From Bifidobacteriaceae bacterium (lineage in GTDB: Bacteria; Actinomycetota; Actinomycetes; Actinomycetales; WQXJ01): a DNA stretch of 64,000 nucleotides. The stretch is taken from NCBI GenBank assembly GCA_031267825.1, contig JAIRYJ010000036.1, positions 1 through 64,000 on the forward strand, in the 5' to 3' direction. This document shows positions 11,677 to 47,082 of this stretch, piece after piece (the first letter of the stretch is position 1; every line of letters starts with the position of its first letter). Made by a program: the position numbers and the translations under genes. Under the pieces are notes generated by a model. It was not told the DNA's origin. It did not search any database and was given only the letters and a program-made list of their open reading frames with translations.

Positions 11677-13111
11677 TTGACGAATCGGTTGCGACATCAA
11701 ACTGGCCGATCTGATGAACCAAGATCTGGTTGGTGGTTCCGGCTATACCAACTGGTGCGCCTGACACGATCACAACAGTTTCGCCAGTTTCACCTAAACC
11801 ATGGGAACGCAAAACCGTGTCGGTGTCCCAGATCATCCGGTCAGTGTGCTCATATTGCGGCACCTGGAAAGCCCTAATCCCCCAAGCCAATGACAGTTGG
11901 CGTTGCACATCAAGGCTCGGTGTCAAAGCGATCAACGGAATCGGTGAGCGCAACCGGGCCATCCGCCGGGCTGAATCACCAGTCTCAGTGAACGCCACCA
12001 AGTAGGCCGCCTCCATTGTGCCCGCGATCTCCGCTGCCGCTTTGGTCAGAATCCCAGGATTGGTCCGCGGTGTGGCGGTCATTAGCCGGATCCGGCCGGC
12101 CCCACCAGCTTCAACCGCTGTGATGATCCGGGCCATGGTCCGGACCGCGTCAACTGGATAAGCCCCAGCTGAGGTTTCAGCCGACAACATGACAGCGTCC
12201 GCCCCATCAAGGACCGCGTTGGCGCAATCGGAGGCTTCAGCTCTGGTTGGCCTGGGGTTCGAGATCATTGAGTCAAGCACCTGGGTGGCGACTATGACAG
12301 GCCGGGCGTACCGCCTGGCCAAATCAATGGCGTCTTTCTGGACTAGTGGAACATCTTCTAAGGGCAGTTCAACTCCCAGGTCGCCGCGCGCCACCATGAT
12401 GGCGTCAAACGTCCGGACTATGTCTGACAGATTGGTGACAGCCTGCGGCTTTTCAATCTTGGCGACAACTGGTAACACCCGGCCCTGTTGTCGCATGATT
12501 TGTTCCACCGCGTTGTAGTCACTGGCCGAGCGGACAAACGACAACGCCACTATGTCGACTCCGAGTTCAAGCATGAAACTAAGGTCAGCGATGTCTTTAG
12601 GGGTCATGGCTGGGACTGAGACAGCCACACCAGGCAGGTTCAAACCCTTATGGTCGGAGATTTCGCCGCCCACTTCAACTGTGGTGATGACCTCAGTTGG
12701 GGTGACCTGATCAATCCGAACAGCGACTTTGCCGTCATCAATCAGGATCTGGTCACGTACCCTGGCATCACCTGGTAAGCCCTGATATGTCGTCGAAGCG
12801 CGTTCTTTGGTTCCGACGGTGTCTTGAGTTGTGATGATGAACCGTTCACCGGCCACCAGTTCGACTGGTTGGTGACCAGCGAAGGTGCCCAGCCTGATCT
12901 TGGGGCCTTGCAGATCAGCCAATACGCCGACTGGCTGGCCCGTGGCCTGCGAGACTTGGCGGATTGTCTGATAAGTCATCCTGTGCTGATCGTGTGTGCC
13001 ATGTGACAAGTTCAACCGGGCGACGTTCATCCCAGCTTCGATCAGTTCAGTGATGCGCTCTCTCGAGTCGCTGGCCGGACCTATGGTGCAGACAATTTTG
13101 GCGCGTCGCAT
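11660..13111 (-). CDS. pyk: Pyruvate kinase
   Basis: 'RRAKIVCTIGPASDSRERITELIEAGMNVARLNLSHG', 'VVAKIEKPQAV', 'IMVARGDLGVELPLEDVP'. Confidence 0.98.
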   Translation of the reverse strand: MRRAKIVCTIGPASDSRERITELIEAGMNVARLNLSHGTHDQHRMTYQTIRQVSQATGQPVGVLADLQGPKIRLGTFAGHQPVELVAGERFIITTQDTVGTKERASTTYQGLPGDARVRDQILIDDGKVAVRIDQVTPTEVITTVEVGGEISDHKGLNLPGVAVSVPAMTPKDIADLSFMLELGVDIVALSFVRSASDYNAVEQIMRQQGRVLPVVAKIEKPQAVTNLSDIVRTFDAIMVARGDLGVELPLEDVPLVQKDAIDLARRYARPVIVATQVLDSMISNPRPTRAEASDCANAVLDGADAVMLSAETSAGAYPVDAVRTMARIITAVEAGGAGRIRLMTATPRTNPGILTKAAAEIAGTMEAAYLVAFTETGDSARRMARLRSPIPLIALTPSLDVQRQLSLAWGIRAFQVPQYEHTDRMIWDTDTVLRSHGLGETGETVVIVSGAPVGIAGTTNQILVHQIGQFDVATDSSTTHLT

Positions 13112-37124: not shown

Positions 37125-38967
37125 TGGAAGAGTCGGTCTCCACTCGCCGGATCAACGCCAGAAACATCGCGTCAGTGCCGTGCCGGTCTGTCCAAAGCTG
37201 CATCATGCCGTCCTGCCCAACCGAATCCGCTGGAATCAGATCAATGGTCCTTGCGTCTATCAGGGTCGCATCCTGGCTGGATCGCAAGACGTCCTCCACT
37301 ACCAGTCGGGTTTCAGCCAGATGCGGCGAACACGTCGCGTAGGCCACCACCCCGCCTGGGCGGGTCAGTTTCAGACCAGCCCTCAACAGGTCGCGTTGCA
37401 GCGGACCCAAGGTGGCTAGATCGGCTGGTGCGTGCCGCCAGCGCGCTTCCGGCCGACGCCGTAAAGCACCCAGGCCAGTGCATGGCACATCCACCAATAC
37501 ACGGTCGAACTGTCCGGTCACCTCACGTCCGTCAAGTTCGGTTACAGTCACCGTGTCATCTAGTTGTTTGACCGCTTGGCGAACCAAGTCCGCCCGGTGT
37601 GGCAGTGGTTCGTTAGCTGTCAGGTGGGCACCTCGCTGGCGGGCTATGCCGCCTAACAGCCCGGCTTTGCCGCCTGGCCCGGCGCAAAGGTCAAGCCAGG
37701 CGCCTTGATCGTCTTCGACTGGGGTTTGCGCCAAAGCCCAAACAACAAGCTGGGAGCCTTCGTCTTGGACGGCGGCCTGGCCGTGGCGGACGGCCAGCAG
37801 GTCGCCGGGGGCACCGCGTGGCATGGTGATAGCCGACTCGGTTAGTTGTCCGATTACGCCAGTGCGTTTAGTCAAAGCCTCAATTTGGGCTGCCAGGGCG
37901 TCACGCGTTATCAGTGTTGGCCGGGCCGCCAGCGTGATGGCGGGTTGGGTGTTAGCACTGGCCAGGACGGCGATCAGGTCTGACACGTCGCGCCCAGCCC
38001 CGATCATGGCTTGACGTAACGTCCGGACCACCCAAGCGGGCTGAGAGTAGCGAATCGCTAGGACTTCGAGTGAATCATCGTCTGGGGGTGCGACCTGTTC
38101 CAGCAGTGTCTGATACGGGCCTTCTGTCAGTGCTCGCAGAATGGCGTTGATGAATCCGGCGGACCCGCTGCCGACGGTTTCGCGGGCCAGGCCAACGGTT
38201 TCGCCGACGGCCGCGTGATCTGGTACCCGCATGGCGGCAATCTGGTGTGCTCCGAGGCGCAGAACATCCCGCACTGGCGGGTCGATCGTGTCCCGGCCAG
38301 CCACTAGGTCAATCACGGCGTCATACTGGCCTTGGAGGCGGATTGTTCCGTAGGCCAATTCAGTGGCGAAGGCGGCGTCCCTCCCGTGGATGTCACGCTG
38401 TGCCAGCATTTTCGGCAGTGTCAGGTTGGCGTAAGCCCCGTCCGCCACCGCTCTGAGCAGGTCAAAGGCGGCCCGGCGGACCGGGTCAGCACCATATTGG
38501 CGGTCACTTGACCATTGACCGCCGCTCCTGCCATCGCGACTGCCGCCACGGTCATCCCGATCACGCCACGGCCTCTGACCACCGCTTCCACCATCGCGAC
38601 TGCCGCCACGGTCATCCCGGTCACGCCACGGCCGCCCGCCACCGTCATCCCGATCACGCCGCGGCCGCTGGCCACCATCTCGCCCGCCACCACGGTCGCC
38701 TCTCTGCCCGTCGCGGTCACGCCACGGCCTTTGACCGCCGCTTCCACCATCGCGACTGCCACCACGGTCATCCCGATCACGCCACGGCCGCCCGCCACGG
38801 TCATCCCGGTCACGCCACGGCCTTTGACCACCATCCCGATCACGCCACGGCCGCCCGCCACCATCGGGTTCAGGCGTACGCGCCTCGTCCGCTTTGCGGG
38901 CCTCGGCCCGCCCAGTTACACCCTCACCGGACTGCGTAGAATCGGCCGGCCTCTCATCTTCACTCAT
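37111..38967 (-). CDS. rsmB: RsmB/NOP-family 16S rRNA (cytosine-C5) methyltransferase with repetitive R/G/D-rich N-terminal extension
   Basis: NusB-like '[25 protein letters not shown]' and MTase '[16 protein letters not shown]', '[22 protein letters not shown]'; likely start MSEDERP at 38967, overlapping the fmt stop. Confidence 0.92.
38490..38880 (-). repeat. Imperfect tandem repeats encoding [15 protein letters not shown]-type units within rsmB
   Basis: Six 'PWRDRD' plus one 'PRRDRD' units; on the + strand recurrent 'catcccgatcacgccacggcc'. Confidence 0.9.
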
Positions 38968-40060: not shown

Positions 40061-41992
40061 CTAGTCGAGCCGCGCATCCACTTTGACCCGAACCAGCCCA
40101 CCGCTGCGGGAAATTGATCTGGCGCGGACCGCCGCCCGAATCGCCGCCAACCCGGCTTGAGCCTGTCGTAGCGGCAACAGGACCACGGTCTGTTCCGGAC
40201 CTGGCACGGTCTTGGCGCCTGGCGGCAGTTTGACCCGGCCGAGGAGATCAGCCGCATCCATCCGCTCGCCATACAACACAACCGCCTTCGTGGCTGGTGG
40301 TAGGCCCAGTTCACGGCGTTCCGCTAGTTCACGGGCAGCCAAGCCCGCCGGATCCCAGCGGATGAAAGCTTGCACCGCGACCCCTCCGGCCGAGCCGACC
40401 AGCATGACCCGTCCAGCGGCCCTGACCAGTGAGGCGGCGTTCATCCAGGCTCGCAGCGCGTCGATTGACGCGTCGAGGGCAGGCCGGGCGATCAAGCTGC
40501 CGCCATCCAGTAAGACGGCCGCCGCGTAACCACCCTCCGCTATCGGTTCGGCCCCGCGGGTGGCGATCATCAACCGCGGTTCGGCCTCCACCCGGTCAAT
40601 CACGCCAGGCACAGCGGCTGACCGTTTGACCGTGACACCGGCGAAAGCTCGGCCCAAATCGGCTGCCGTTCGGCTCAAACCGAAGACCTCATGGCGGGCG
40701 CTGGGTACTTGCACCAGAACTGGGCCATGTTCGAGCCCGTCCCGGATGATCCGGAAGGCCGCACTGGGCAACCTGGTCGACGCGGTCATACCCTCGCTGC
40801 CTAAGTCTTCACTAGTTGGCGCGGAAATCGCCGGGGTGGCTGAACGGACCGTTGGGCGCGGAATTGTGACCGGTTGCATCCAGCCCGCCTCAATTAGCGC
40901 ATGAGCTTCGACCGAGCGTGTCAGGCCCGGCAGCAGCAAGGCGCAGCCATCTTGACCTGCCCGGACGGTCATCACCGTACGGGTTGGCGGGTAGGGGGCG
41001 TGTGGTTCGTCCAGGGCTGGGTCGCCGTCCTCAAGTAGTACCAGCAGACCGGGTCTGGCCAGCGGAGCGTAGGCTGCCGCGCGGGTTCCGACCAGGACAT
41101 CAGCCATGCCCGATGCCGCCGCCCAGTATCCTTCCAACCTCGCGGACGGCCCGTCCCCGGCTACCAGGCGTGCGACGTTCAGGCCCGGACCGAACCAGTC
41201 AGCCATACGTCCCACCATCCGTTCAGATGGCGCCACAACAAGAGCTTGACGGCCCGCTTGGACAACCGCGTGAACAGCTCTGACCAGCCCGTTTGGCAGG
41301 TCCTCGGCGGGCAAATAGTTCCAAACCGCGCGCGGTCCCGGCGGTTTGGGGTCTCCCGTCGGATTGGGTTCTCCGAGCCGTCTGGGTTCTCCGGGCGGAC
41401 TGGGATCAGAACCAGGAAGGCCGAGCCAATCCTCAAGACGCCCGATATAGCCGTCCAGGCTGGTTGGTCCCGTCACGGGCCGACCGATTCGTCGTGCCGC
41501 CTTGACTGGTCGTGGCGTTTCACCGCCAAACAGCGCATCACCATTCGGCTCGGTTTCTAGCCCCGCTAAGCGCTGTTCGGTTTCAATATGGGCCATCGGA
41601 ATGGCTAGCCGTAAGACGTCCGCCACCACCCCGGCCTGTCGGGCCGCGACAGCCTGCGCCAGGCGCCACAGGCCCGCTGTCAGTAGCGGCAAGCCTGACG
41701 GCACACGTGCGATCGGGGCGAGTTTGCCCGGATGATCCGACTGTTCGCGCCGCCCCACAATAAACCCGGTAACTGAGCGGCCACCAAAGCCAGCCCGCAT
41801 CCGGACCCCAGGTTGGGCCAGGGCGTCCCACTTGGCGGGCACCAGATAGTCGAACGTCCGGTCTAGATGCGGTGTGGACAGATCAAGTGTGACAATCGCA
41901 ACTGGGTTTTCCGCGGCGATCTCCGGTTCCCGGCGCGGCCGTGGCCGCCTGGCTGGCACCAAGCCAGGCAGGACACCTTGTTCAACCGTCAC
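40061..41992 (-). CDS. priA: PriA-like primosomal protein N', degenerate actinobacterial type
   Basis: 'VTLDLSTPHLDRTFDYLVPAKWDALAQPGVRMRAGFGGRSVTGFIVGR' PriA N-terminal domain; position beside fmt; no Walker A motif. Confidence 0.85.
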   Translation of the reverse strand: MTVEQGVLPGLVPARRPRPRREPEIAAENPVAIVTLDLSTPHLDRTFDYLVPAKWDALAQPGVRMRAGFGGRSVTGFIVGRREQSDHPGKLAPIARVPSGLPLLTAGLWRLAQAVAARQAGVVADVLRLAIPMAHIETEQRLAGLETEPNGDALFGGETPRPVKAARRIGRPVTGPTSLDGYIGRLEDWLGLPGSDPSPPGEPRRLGEPNPTGDPKPPGPRAVWNYLPAEDLPNGLVRAVHAVVQAGRQALVVAPSERMVGRMADWFGPGLNVARLVAGDGPSARLEGYWAAASGMADVLVGTRAAAYAPLARPGLLVLLEDGDPALDEPHAPYPPTRTVMTVRAGQDGCALLLPGLTRSVEAHALIEAGWMQPVTIPRPTVRSATPAISAPTSEDLGSEGMTASTRLPSAAFRIIRDGLEHGPVLVQVPSARHEVFGLSRTAADLGRAFAGVTVKRSAAVPGVIDRVEAEPRLMIATRGAEPIAEGGYAAAVLLDGGSLIARPALDASIDALRAWMNAASLVRAAGRVMLVGSAGGVAVQAFIRWDPAGLAARELAERRELGLPPATKAVVLYGERMDAADLLGRVKLPPGAKTVPGPEQTVVLLPLRQAQAGLAAIRAAVRARSISRSGGLVRVKVDARLD

Positions 41993-42101: not shown

Positions 42102-45100
42102 TCAATCGCTCGCATCTGCCTCGGCCTGTCTGGCCCAATGCCTTACCCGGTCACGGGCCTGGAGAGTCTTGCTGTGGTTCGGCCCATACTCCTGCGAGGC
42201 GGCCAGAGCATCGGCCTGCGCCCGGTGTTGACGTGCGGCGCCGGACGCATCCCCAGACTTCCCCAAACATTCAGCAAACCAATACCAGGCATTCAAAGTG
42301 TCCTGGTGGACCTCACCCAGGGTCTCACGGCGAGCCTGCCACAGCTCCTTGTAGCGCACGGCGGCCTCTCCGAACCGTTCCTCCTTGCGCAGATCCGAAG
42401 CCAGGTTCGATAACGTCGCCAAGGTTGCCGCGTCCTGCGGCCCAAACAGGCGGATCTTTTCCGTCAGCAATTCTTCATTTAGGTCAATCGCCTGGGCTCG
42501 CCGCCCAGCCTGGCTCAGCCAGTAGGCCGTTTGATGGCAGGCAGTCAGCGATTCTCGGTGTTCTGGACCATAGTCCGCACAGGCAGCCAGAGCATCGGCC
42601 TGCGCCTGGTGTTGACGCGCGGCGCCGGACGCATCCCCAGACTTCCCCAGACATTCAGCAAACCAATACCAGGCATTCAAAGTGTCCTCGTGCGCCTCAC
42701 CCAAGGTTTCACGGCGAGCCTGCCACAATTCCTTGTAACGCACGGCCGCCTCCGCGAACTGTTTTCCCTTACGCAGATCCGAAGCCAGATTCGACAACGT
42801 CACCAAAGTCGCGGAATCCTGCGGCCCAAATAAACGGATCCTTTCCGACAGCACTGTCTGGTACAACTCAATAGCCTCGGCCGTGCGTCCCGCTTTGGCC
42901 GTCGCGTAAGCATGATTGTGCCGAAACGCCAGGGTTATGGGATGGCTTGGGCCAAAGCTGGCCAGTCCGGTCAGATCAGTTGTAGCGGCGGCATAACTAG
43001 CGGCTGAATCCTCCCACAGGCCCTCGGCACCGAGCGCGCTAAGGTGCCCGCGGTAGGTCTGCCAATACAACAATGAACTCCGCCCCAGCCGTTCGGCGGC
43101 CGATTCAAGCAGAGCCAAGCGTTCGGCCAAAGGTGCCTGGTCAATCCTTAGCAGACGGCTCCTGAAGGACTCGTTCGGTGTCGTCTGCTCAATCGAACCG
43201 CCAAAGGCGACTTGAAAACGACAACGAACTGTGGCAGGTAGTTCTTGCAATATGGCACCCAGCAACTGATTCCAGACGGACTCTTCAAGACGTGGGTCGG
43301 CCCGCAAGGACTCGATGTGGCCTAGGGCGCGCTCAACGGCCTGGGCATCGCCGACCACCGCACAGTTTATGGCCAGAATCAACCTGACCAGCGGCTCGGT
43401 AGCTGACTCCTCGGCTCGGCGCAACTCCTCCAAGGGATTTGGGCTGCCCTCTGCAACGGCCACTATCTGCGCCGCCTCAATCATTGGCATGCGGATGGAC
43501 AATTCTTCTTGCCAGTCACCCGACAACAATCTCGGGTCGACCTGTCCGGCTGACCCAAGGAGCCTGGCCGCGAGTCGCGAGCTTCCTTCTAACTGCGCGG
43601 CAACTCCCAGGCTGAACCTCAAACCGCTCAGCGTTCCGCTGCCCTCCGCCATGATCCCGCCCAGGGCCTGACTCAACCGGTCAAACGGTACACCCGTCAC
43701 ACACTCCATCAGGCAGCCATCACAGACCGAATCAAGCAAATCATGAGCCCACCAACCGTCTTCATCCGCCATGATCAAGCCTTCACGGCCACGGCTTTCA
43801 ATCAGAGCCAAGGTGTTTAGGAAGGCCTCCCTGATGACCGCTGGATCGTGCCAATCAGACATCTCTTCGAAGGCATCAGCACAGGCCCGGACTGCTTTCT
43901 CGCACTCTTCGAGTTCAGCCATGCCTTGGATGGCTTTAGCCGCCAGGCGATGCATCGTGATGATCTGATCCGGCCACTTACCGGATCCCTGACCAGGTGT
44001 GATGTCAACCAGGTTGCGCCGGAAGAGGGCTTGCAGCGCTCCCGGCCGACCAAGTTCCTCCTGTGGCGTTTGGCCATCCCAGAGGTATGTCTGTATGGCC
44101 TCGCTCTGCCATAAACGTCCCGGGTGGCCAGTCGGAGCTAAGACGGCCGAGACCAGCGCCGCACGCGTGGTCATTCCGGGAGCGGGTTCATTGGCCGCGG
44201 CGCTTGCCAGGGCAACGGCCCAAACCTGAGCCAGTTTGACTGGGTATCCATCGGGGTCATCCAAGCTGACCGTCACTGAGTCAAGGCCTTCAGCCTGGTT
44301 GAACCGTTCGATCCACTCTTCGATCGAGACCGAAGAGACCTCAATCGTGGCCGCGGCAATGCTGAGGGCTAAAGGCAGCCGCCCAACCGCTTCAGCCAAA
44401 GCTAAGAATGAATCCCGGTCCCCTTCAACACCAGGATGACGTTCCAGGTAGTCGAGGCATTCCTCCTCAGAGAACTCCTCAGCTTTGACAAGGCAGGCCA
44501 GCCGTTCAAGCTCCGGGCCACGATCACGGGTGGTGATCAAACTGCGTCCAAGTGGTGTTTCGGGCGGCAACAAACCAAGCCGTCGCAGATTGGTGACGGC
44601 GTCAAGGGAAAGCCCAGGTGATGAGTCAACGTTGTCCAGAATCACCAGCCACGGCCATCGCGCCTGGCGCAGAGCGGTTACCAGTTCGCCTGCCAGGCGC
44701 CCAGGACGGCTGTTCGGGTCCTGGTCGGGTGCCGGATCCGCCAGTCCAAGCCGCCTGGCGGCGTCAGCGTAGGCCTCAATGACCGATTCAGAGTTGGCTG
44801 GTTCAACCATCACAATCAAGCGCGGCTGTGAATCGAGGCCCTCGAACGCTTCCCGGTAGACCCACCGGGCAAGCAAAGACTTACCGGTGCCGCCGTTACC
44901 GGATAGCGCGACACGGCTGTGACCCTCATCCCAAGCTTGTTGGATGCGTTGGCTGACCTCACGTTCAACATGGGTGGCGGGCAGATCCAAGCCGCGTGAG
45001 ACATGCGCCGCCACTGCGGTTGGCCCGCCGTCCCAGGCGCCGGGCAGGCCAAGAAACCCGCGGCGGACATCGCTTGACAAGACCTTGCGCACCCACGACT

Positions 45101-45593
45101 TGAGTGAGCGGTGTCGCGTGAAAGCGGTTATCGGAATGCCTTCCGCTTCCAAGGATTGCAAAGCCTCAGCCAATTCCTGGCTCCGAACCGGCGGTCCGCT
45201 CAGCCAGCCGTGGCCTGGTTCAGTGTGGGCGAAGACACGCACAGTCTTGCCTTGAGCCAGTCCCTCCCTGATTTCAGCCATAGTTCCCGACGGGTAGGAC
45301 TTGCCGGAACCTTCAAGAACGCAGGGTTGCCCTAGGTCATGTTCGAAAACCGCTATGACGTATTCGGCTTCTTTCAGGACCGTCTCGTTGTAGGTTCCCT
45401 GAACCCCGTCAGCACTGCGCGGTGCCCCGGCATCACGTTTCCAGTGGTGAACTTCGACTTGCAGATCAGTTAGCTGCTCCTCGTTCCATTCTTCGACCAA
45501 GGTCTCCTCAACCGCTCTGGCCGATCTGGTGGCATCACCAGGGAAAGCCAACATAACGTTGATGGATTGGAGCGTTCTTGGGGGCATGTTCAA
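42102..45593 (-). CDS. STAND (NB-ARC) NTPase with N-terminal TIR/DUF4062-like domain and C-terminal TPRs; NLR-like
   Basis: aa 9-125: 'INVMLAFPGDATRSARAVEETLVEEWNE..SGTMAEIREGLAQGKTVRVF'; Walker A 'GNGGTGKS' (aa 232-239), Walker B 'WLVILDNVD', 'SLITTRDRG', GLPL-like 'GRLPLALSIAA'; TPR units 'FGPQDSATLVTLSNLASDLRK'. Confidence 0.88.
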   Translation of the reverse strand: MNMPPRTLQSINVMLAFPGDATRSARAVEETLVEEWNEEQLTDLQVEVHHWKRDAGAPRSADGVQGTYNETVLKEAEYVIAVFEHDLGQPCVLEGSGKSYPSGTMAEIREGLAQGKTVRVFAHTEPGHGWLSGPPVRSQELAEALQSLEAEGIPITAFTRHRSLKSWVRKVLSSDVRRGFLGLPGAWDGGPTAVAAHVSRGLDLPATHVEREVSQRIQQAWDEGHSRVALSGNGGTGKSLLARWVYREAFEGLDSQPRLIVMVEPANSESVIEAYADAARRLGLADPAPDQDPNSRPGRLAGELVTALRQARWPWLVILDNVDSSPGLSLDAVTNLRRLGLLPPETPLGRSLITTRDRGPELERLACLVKAEEFSEEECLDYLERHPGVEGDRDSFLALAEAVGRLPLALSIAAATIEVSSVSIEEWIERFNQAEGLDSVTVSLDDPDGYPVKLAQVWAVALASAAANEPAPGMTTRAALVSAVLAPTGHPGRLWQSEAIQTYLWDGQTPQEELGRPGALQALFRRNLVDITPGQGSGKWPDQIITMHRLAAKAIQGMAELEECEKAVRACADAFEEMSDWHDPAVIREAFLNTLALIESRGREGLIMADEDGWWAHDLLDSVCDGCLMECVTGVPFDRLSQALGGIMAEGSGTLSGLRFSLGVAAQLEGSSRLAARLLGSAGQVDPRLLSGDWQEELSIRMPMIEAAQIVAVAEGSPNPLEELRRAEESATEPLVRLILAINCAVVGDAQAVERALGHIESLRADPRLEESVWNQLLGAILQELPATVRCRFQVAFGGSIEQTTPNESFRSRLLRIDQAPLAERLALLESAAERLGRSSLLYWQTYRGHLSALGAEGLWEDSAASYAAATTDLTGLASFGPSHPITLAFRHNHAYATAKAGRTAEAIELYQTVLSERIRLFGPQDSATLVTLSNLASDLRKGKQFAEAAVRYKELWQARRETLGEAHEDTLNAWYWFAECLGKSGDASGAARQHQAQADALAACADYGPEHRESLTACHQTAYWLSQAGRRAQAIDLNEELLTEKIRLFGPQDAATLATLSNLASDLRKEERFGEAAVRYKELWQARRETLGEVHQDTLNAWYWFAECLGKSGDASGAARQHRAQADALAASQEYGPNHSKTLQARDRVRHWARQAEADASD
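42202..42844 (-). repeat. Intragenic tandem duplication, period 384 bp (128 aa), in the TPR region of the STAND gene
   Basis: 'gccagagcatcggcctgcgcc' at 42202 and 42586; 'attcaaagtg' at 42291 and 42675; proteins share 'EAAVRYKELWQARRETLGE.H.DTLNAWYWFAECLGKSGDASGAARQH.AQADALAA'. Confidence 0.92.
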
Positions 45594-45674: not shown

Positions 45675-45736
45675 GACCCACAGAAACTGACCCCAGTGGC
45701 TAGTTTTGACCCCACTGGGGTCAATTCCTGTACTGA
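45675..45736. repeat. Palindromic repeat unit, copy 1
   Basis: 'gacccacagaaactgaccccagtggctagttttgaccccactggggtcaattcctgtactgaag'; contains the 12 bp inverted repeat TGACCCCAGTGG/CCACTGGGGTCA. Confidence 0.9.
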
Positions 45737-45833
45737 AGCAGACCGATCTGGTTACTGGCCTTGACTGGGCGGCTAGTGAAACCGCAGGTCAGCGGACCGG
45801 TGGTGTCTTGGGATTCCTGGGCGGGATCAGTTG

Positions 45834-45895
45834 GACCCACAGAAAATGACCCCAGTGGCTAGTTTTGACCCCACTGGGGTCAATTCCTGTAGTGG
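45834..45895. repeat. Palindromic repeat unit, copy 2, immediately 3' of metK
   Basis: 'gacccacagaaaatgaccccagtggctagttttgaccccactggggtcaattcctgtagtggag'; differs from copy 1 at about three positions; 159 bp downstream in the same orientation. Confidence 0.9.
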
Positions 45896-45903
45896 AGCGG
45901 CGA

Positions 45904-47082
45904 TCAGATCGCCGCCAGCAACTCCTGGGTCCGGTCAGTTGATTCCCAAGAGAACCCCTCCCGGCCAAAATGGCCAAAGGTGGCCGTTGGTCGGTACACC
46001 TGATGCAAGAGATCAAGCTGGTCAATGATGGCTGCCGGGCGCAGATCAAACACGCCGCTGACGGCAGCCGCTAGGACGGCATCGTCCACTTGCCCGGTGC
46101 CGAAAGTGTCAACCGCCACACTAATCGGAGCGGCCGCCCCAATCGCGTAAGCCACTTGAATTTCGCACCGCCGTGCCAAACCTGCCGCCACCACGTTCTT
46201 GGCCGCCCACCTGGCCGCGTACGATGCCGACCGGTCAACTTTCGAGGCGTCCTTGCCGGAAAAAGCCCCGCCGCCGTGCCGGGCCATACCACCATAAGTG
46301 TCGACAATGATTTTCCGTCCGGTAACGCCAGTGTCAGCGGCCGGCCCGCCGATCACAAAACTACCTGAAGGATTAACCAGTACCCGCTGCGGTTCGCCCA
46401 AACCCAGCGCGCCAACGACCGGTTCGACCACCACTTGACGGACCGCCCGGGTCAAGTCGGCTTGGCTCACCTCCGGTCGATGCTGCGCCGAAATGACAAC
46501 AGTTTCAAGCCCAACAGGTTGCCCATCCTGATAAGCCACCGTGACTTGTGTCTTACCATCTGGCCGCAAAAAGGCCAGCTCACCGGACCGACGAACCGCT
46601 TCAAGACGTTCAGCCAGACGGTGCGCCAGAGCTATCGGCAACGGCATGAGCTGCGGCGTCTCATCAACCGCGTAACCAAACATCATTCCTTGATCGCCGG
46701 CCCCTTGAGTTTCAAGCCGTCCACTATGTGAACCGTCGCGCACCTCAACCGACCGGCCCACGCCGGCCGCGATCTCCTGGCTTTGACCTTCGATCAGCAC
46801 AGACACACCGCAACTGGCTCCATCAATGCCGGCTTCAGCCGAGTTGTAGCCCTGACCGAGTAAAACCTGGCGGGCAATATCCGCCACAGCCGCGTAACCA
46901 TCGGTTGTGACCTCGCCAGCGACCACTACTTGGCCGTGTGAGATCAAACATTCGACCGCCACATGAGACAAAGGATCATCAACCAGTAAGGCGTCAAGGA
47001 CCGCGTCAGCGATCTGGTCGCACAGTTTGTCAGGATGTCCGCCGGTGACGGACTCAGAGGTGAACAGACGGCGTGAAGTCAT
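45904..47082 (-). CDS. metK: S-adenosylmethionine synthetase
   Basis: '[29 protein letters not shown]', '[12 protein letters not shown]', '[27 protein letters not shown]'. Confidence 0.98.

Follow-up and report, generated by a model that had tools for sequence, protein, structure and literature searches.

A predicted NLR-like immune receptor with DUF4062/TIR-like, NB-ARC and TPR regions between metK and priA in a Bifidobacteriaceae bacterium

The window analyzed here, the whole stretch of DNA under study, comprises 64,000 nt of contig JAIRYJ010000036.1 from a Bifidobacteriaceae bacterium, whose genome (G000; 2.74 Mb in 39 contigs) is 94.6% complete. The host may come from a termite gut, a guess that draws on related literature and that bears on none of the results below. 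An NLR-like gene on the minus strand (42102–45593) encodes one protein, referred to below as the window protein, with a DUF4062/TIR-like domain, an NB-ARC (STAND) switch, a helical region and tetratricopeptide repeats (TPRs) in that order, as judged from a single open frame and its domain matches. The gene is preceded by metK (45904–47082, minus strand; TIGR01034, 529 bits) and followed by priA (40061–41992, minus strand; PriA_3primeBD, 8.6e-17), which confirms the flanks given in an earlier note on this DNA. The wider neighborhood contains fmt, rsmB, coaBC, gmk and pyrF-like frames (these five named by eye), so that the gene is set among housekeeping genes and not in a recognized defense island.

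The 42102–45593 frame contains 1163 codons without an internal stop. Since it is rich in domains and has relatives in several genomes, it is a real gene and not a chance frame. The listed start is a TTG at 45593, which gives 1163 residues; an in-frame ATG at 45587–45585 (LNMPP...), which gives 1161 residues, is the likelier true start because the starts of the paralogues fit it better. By eye, no ribosome-binding site could be recognized ahead of the gene, a scan of the gene region for sigma-70-like promoters found none, and terminator-like sites at the gene show no excess over shuffled sequences.

The NLR-like gene is inserted between metK and priA. The two genes adjoin, with a gap of less than 300 bp, in 15 relatives (G001–G005, G009, G015, G016, G019, G020, G022, G023 and G025–G027), and are separated by 1.3–1.6 kb in G018 and G021, with no match to the window protein in either; in the remaining genomes of the comparison they are unlinked or incomplete. 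The layout is confirmed by tblastn for most of these genomes, at loci taken with 1.5-kb flanks, so that some neighbors were reached partly. The earlier note had proposed comparing this interval among relatives, with presence of the gene throughout the family as a point against its view; the site is empty in the 15 genomes listed. One of the paralogues described below, located at 12176–14440 of contig C18, has a hisN-like and a secA-like frame (both identified by eye) on its two sides, and these are ~40 bp apart in the congener G005; other congeners are only partly informative.

The nucleotide-binding switch (residues 205–560; 43914–44981, minus strand) was recognized by its motifs and by comparison of its model with CED-4, Apaf-1 and plant NRC1. 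All motifs quoted earlier for the 1163-residue frame (GNGGTGKS, VILDNVD, LITTRDRG and GRLPLAL) are present, namely Walker A GNGGTGKS (residues 232–239; 44877–44900, minus strand), Walker B WLVILDNVD (residues 315–323; 44625–44651, minus strand), the TTR-type motif LITTRDRG (residues 352–359) and the GLPL-type motif GRLPLAL (residues 404–410; 44364–44384, minus strand). An MHD-type motif, MHR (residues 547–549; 43947–43955, minus strand), had not been listed. Its Met547 and His548 are invariant in four relatives, as are the Walker A, Walker B, TTR and GLPL residues. The Pfam NB-ARC model matches the window protein at 1.1e-4 and 21.9 bits, just under the cut-off of 23.5, and two paralogues at 31.9 and 35.9 bits, both over it. 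Compared with solved structures, the switch model matches CED-4 (1e-8), Apaf-1 (2e-8) and the NRC1 NB-ARC domain (template modeling (TM) score of 0.63). Because CED-4, Apaf-1 and plant NRC proteins are the best solved matches, the switch is, as modeled, of the NB-ARC rather than the NACHT type.

The switch is followed by a helical middle region (residues 561–840; 43074–43913, minus strand), which is poorly conserved among the relatives (15–27% identity where alignable, mostly unaligned) and helical in the model at low confidence; it is a candidate lineage-specific sensor or linker. The C-terminal region (residues 841–1162; 42108–43073, minus strand) is a TPR superhelix of the kinesin-light-chain type, with profile matches to TPR_10 (4e-16) and TPR_12 (1e-15), a match to KLC1 of 2e-6 by sequence, and TM scores of 0.82–0.87 to the KLC1 TPR for a model whose predicted local distance difference test (pLDDT) is mostly above 90. 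Within this region, a block of 128 residues containing three TPRs is duplicated in tandem (first copy 42558–42857, second copy 42174–42473, both minus strand; 384-nt spacing), with 85% DNA identity over 300 nt. The central NB-ARC/STAND switch and C-terminal TPRs that the earlier note had proposed are thus borne out by profile matches, motifs and models.

The N-terminal domain (residues 9–183; 45045–45569, minus strand) is very probably a divergent member of DUF4062. This assignment agrees with the TIR/DUF4062-like N-terminus suggested before, and derives from PF13271 by way of intermediate proteins, from the model, and from comparison of a family profile with KpSwz of the Swarozyc system. A profile built from four sequences (A2; the window domain, its two paralogues and a relative from G005) matched 14 of 296 genomes in a search of the order, mostly stand-alone proteins of ~290 residues; the relatives come from 10 additional genomes of the order plus two of the host's family. 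All ten of the A2-found proteins that were scanned reach PF13271 at some level, two of them above the gathering score (best 9.1e-7), and several also match the nucleoside 2-deoxyribosyltransferase (NDT) family PF05014, more weakly. A second profile (A4), of 14 sequences that are mainly stand-alone proteins, matched the DUF4062 domain of KpSwz at 5.6e-4 as the sole significant hit among solved structures.

In the A4–KpSwz alignment, the family pattern S-G-T-x-x-E lies over S-F-T-E-K-A, and the invariant glutamate is opposite Ala84 of the KpSwz chain (SFTEKAFDYA). The KpSwz structures were solved with a catalytically dead active-site mutant, E97A, and E97 is required for both NAD+ hydrolase (NADase) activity and defense (PMC13174449). 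Judging from the alignment and the description of the construct, the alanine at chain position 84 would be the E97A mutation; the numbering is within one residue of that expected for a 15-to-C construct. The corresponding residue of the window protein, Glu107 of an SGTMAE motif (45273–45275, minus strand), is invariant in two alignments of relatives (14 and 17 sequences) and is the candidate for the catalytic glutamate that the earlier note had proposed to look for. The model from the 17-sequence alignment (pLDDT 80.5, predicted TM score 0.78) displays alternating strands and helices in a TIR-like order, with Glu107 located in the helix that follows the third main strand.

DUF4062 genes were also observed on 190 plasmid records (154 of the 190 from Enterococcus) and, by an alignment search, in 19 viral or prophage contigs (L124–L142); proteins related to those of the viral contigs are labeled DUF4062 domain-containing in public records. 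Another DUF4062 alignment found no match in the viral contigs. The frame ahead of one stand-alone DUF4062 protein (L107:1357–2727) contains a VHF tandem repeat that is probably upstream of the true start.

The gene had been described as an orphan, which does not hold, as two further DUF4062-NB-ARC-TPR proteins are encoded elsewhere in G000: one of 1196 residues on contig C21 (81823–85413; L047:1823–5413) and the C18 protein of 754 residues (L048:12176–14440). They share 31–38% identity with the window protein in the effector and 35–38% in the switch. G005 encodes a fourth member, truncated at a contig end. The C21 paralogue stands beside two small genes that resemble a toxin-antitoxin pair by eye (L046:16553–17427). 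Two proteins of the same bacterial family carry other N-termini, with the order SIR2_2-NB-ARC-TPR in G015 (L053:771–5282) and Trypsin_2-STAND-TPR in G009 (L051:1699–5124). Their TPRs are of the same type as those of the window protein and their switches show at best a weak alignment to it (BLAST, among the matches listed); therefore, a shared layout is claimed here and not common descent of the switch. A distant actinobacterium from another family of the phylum (G396; L157:5221–7917) encodes an 899-residue DUF4062-NB-ARC-TPR protein. Its N-terminal part aligns with the window protein at 2e-6, and the two parts that follow do so in the same order at 4e-14 and 7e-28. The relatives are patchy in distribution, with exchanged effectors.

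The domain architecture DUF4062/TIR-like - NB-ARC - TPR is close to certain. Our preferred reading, to which we give a probability of about 0.6, is that the window protein is a single-protein NLR-like immune receptor in which a STAND switch gates an NADase for abortive infection. At rest, the helical and TPR regions would hold the NB-ARC switch shut and keep the N-terminal DUF4062/TIR-like domains apart. The C-terminal region would bind a trigger, for which a phage protein is the likeliest candidate, upon which the switch would exchange nucleotide and oligomerize. The DUF4062 domains, thereby brought together, could act as an NADase that uses Glu107 to deplete NAD+, and the loss of NAD+ would stop the infected cell before phage release. 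The sequence of events from trigger through switch opening and assembly to NAD+ hydrolysis is modeled on Swarozyc and on Avs5, a SIR2-STAND-repeat protein; autoinhibition, the trigger, oligomerization, NAD+ hydrolysis and phage defense are all inferred. From homology, the N-terminal domain is reasonably likely to be catalytically competent as an NADase, and a role in defense is modestly favored; the window protein would probably shut down the infected cell.

Several results weigh against this reading. The window N-terminal domain does not match PF13271 up to an E-value of 5, searches of the N-terminus against Pfam, NCBIfam and PADLOC gave no useful direct match, and the A2 profile produced only noise against solved structures and did not find KpSwz; the DUF4062 link therefore rests on intermediates. 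Foldseek searches with the N-terminal model returned flavodoxins, NDTs, SARM1 and the L6 TIR domain at TM scores of ~0.4, a result that fits the predicted fold class and does not single out TIR; KpSwz is not in this list, its structures (10wc, 11cq and 11cv) not yet being in the library used for the fold search. The full-length model, which is good at residues ~210–560, is weak in all regions other than this switch and the TPRs. No known defense gene was identified beside the NLR-like gene, and the full window protein has no counterpart in phage or viral records or contigs, with matches in Wolbachia phage covering the TPRs only. The GC content at third codon positions (0.643, compared with 0.61–0.68 in the neighbors) is ordinary and does not support recent horizontal transfer. 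Diversifying selection on the duplicated TPRs is likewise not supported, since the ratio of nonsynonymous to synonymous substitution rates between the copies is 0.25, which indicates that they are kept by purifying selection. Taken together, these two results point neither to very recent transfer nor to an arms race.

The divergence of the N-terminal domain, with its lack of a direct Pfam match, also leaves room for an NLR-like receptor whose DUF4062-like domain is another nucleotide- or nucleoside-processing enzyme of the NDT type, or a signaling adaptor, and no NADase. The weak PF05014 matches of relatives and the NDTs in the Foldseek list are consistent with such an enzyme, as is the SGTxxE motif, which also resembles the NDT active site. 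However, KpSwz alone among solved structures gives a significant match to the family profile, and the glutamate falls in register there; the DUF4062 proteins tested so far, both bacterial and human, are NADases (PMC13174449); we thus regard the NDT-type alternative as unlikely. The protein could instead be a STAND regulator or signaling protein of normal physiology, related to FxsT of the FxSxx-COOH system and without a role in defense. FxsT shares the NB-ARC and TPR chassis, the best NCBIfam model for the window protein is FxSxx_TPR (NF040586), and its closest named relatives are FxsT-like NB-ARC-TPR proteins of Streptomyces and Lentzea. Membership in the FxSxx-COOH system was nevertheless rejected, as the NF040586 score of 193.5 bits is under the cut-off of 300 and FxsB (TIGR04269) is absent from the host genome at its 94.6% completeness. 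Unlike the window protein, the FxsT-like relatives examined have no DUF4062 N-terminus, and presence is patchy, at sites that are empty in congeners; an effector that has a conserved candidate catalytic glutamate argues for a toxic output. We consider a purely physiological regulator improbable.

The insertion itself might be an artefact of assembly, as a metagenome misjoin could arise in a dispersed repeat on the metK side. Two copies of a hairpin repeat with a 159-bp period (45675–45739 and 45834–45898; span 45675–45898) do stand between metK and the NLR-like gene. The priA side, on the other hand, lacks the repeat, and priA lies 110 bp from the NLR-like gene; the pairing of metK with priA is conserved in relatives, an order that a random misjoin would not restore; and the composition of the NLR-like gene matches that of its neighbors. 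A misjoin is therefore unlikely, and with the priA side free of the repeat and the neighborhood conserved, we place its probability very low. The repeat is intergenic and dispersed, with the core TGACCCCAGTGGCTAGTTTTGACCCCACTGGGGTCA and with copies frequently in tandem at a spacing of exactly 159 bp, and occurs in at least 22 copies in G000 at up to 3 mismatches (including contigs C13, C17, C2, C4, C5, C8, C9, C31, C33 and C38); none was found in the 5 congeners searched. It was rejected as the cause of the insertion, no copies being reported near the other two paralogues. Elsewhere in the window, the N-terminal part of the rsmB-like frame (38421–38864) is of low complexity, rich in Arg, Asp and Gly, with tandem repeats detected by Tandem Repeats Finder (TRF).

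Among known systems, the preferred reading of a STAND-gated NADase receptor draws on Swarozyc and Avs5. The window protein has its effector family and the position of the catalytic glutamate in common with Swarozyc, whose DUF4062 domain is an NADase and whose small AUX domain binds the phage portal (PMC13174449); the window protein has a STAND switch and TPRs instead. Membership in Swarozyc was rejected, as NB-ARC, the helical region and TPRs, and no AUX domain, come after the DUF4062 domain. Avs5, which depletes NAD+, unites an NADase effector, a STAND center and a repeat sensor in one protein (PMC12931631), as proposed for the window protein; it combines SIR2 with nSTAND3, whereas the window protein combines DUF4062 with NB-ARC, and the PADLOC Avs models do not match it.

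The PADLOC candidate defense protein PDC-S60 (PDLC05050) has a DUF4062-like N-terminus followed by a remainder that matches a NACHT-like STAND protein. The combination of DUF4062 with STAND as a defense gene is therefore not new in itself, being implicit in PDC-S60. Matches to the 906-position PDC-S60 model come from two of the window protein's relatives (1e-7 and 1e-6) and cover the first part of the model only; the window protein itself does not match the model, and it differs from PDC-S60 in its NB-ARC-type switch and TPR end. For DUF4062 with NB-ARC, a literature search that left subscription journals largely uncovered found only the Swarozyc preprint, which discusses human proteins that have DUF4062 next to NACHT.

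Human NPHP3 (nephrocystin-3) ends in TPRs, as is also apparent from the Pfam model name PF24885; the TPR_NPHP3 match of the window protein, at 12.6 bits, is far under the cut-off of 100. The DUF4062-STAND order of the window protein is found in human NPHP3, TEP1, NWD1 and NWD2 (PMC13174449), with a NACHT switch in the human proteins and an NB-ARC switch here. The layout thus resembles that of nephrocystin-3, and common descent of the whole architecture is not claimed. We propose, tentatively and with some doubt, that DUF4062-NB-ARC-TPR proteins are a so far undescribed family of bacterial STAND-gated NADase receptors. They would correspond in layout to human nephrocystin-3/TEP1, and their NADase would be activated when nucleotide drives the assembly of a ring. 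Such proteins would give NLR-like immunity in bacteria one more branch, here in an actinobacterial family that is uncultured. The authors of the Swarozyc/TEP1 study offer gating of the DUF4062 NADase by a STAND ATPase in human TEP1 and its relatives as speculation only (PMC13174449); a compact bacterial protein that joins STAND and DUF4062 with the candidate catalytic glutamate intact, and that has paralogues and swapped-effector relatives, would make the gating mechanism directly testable.

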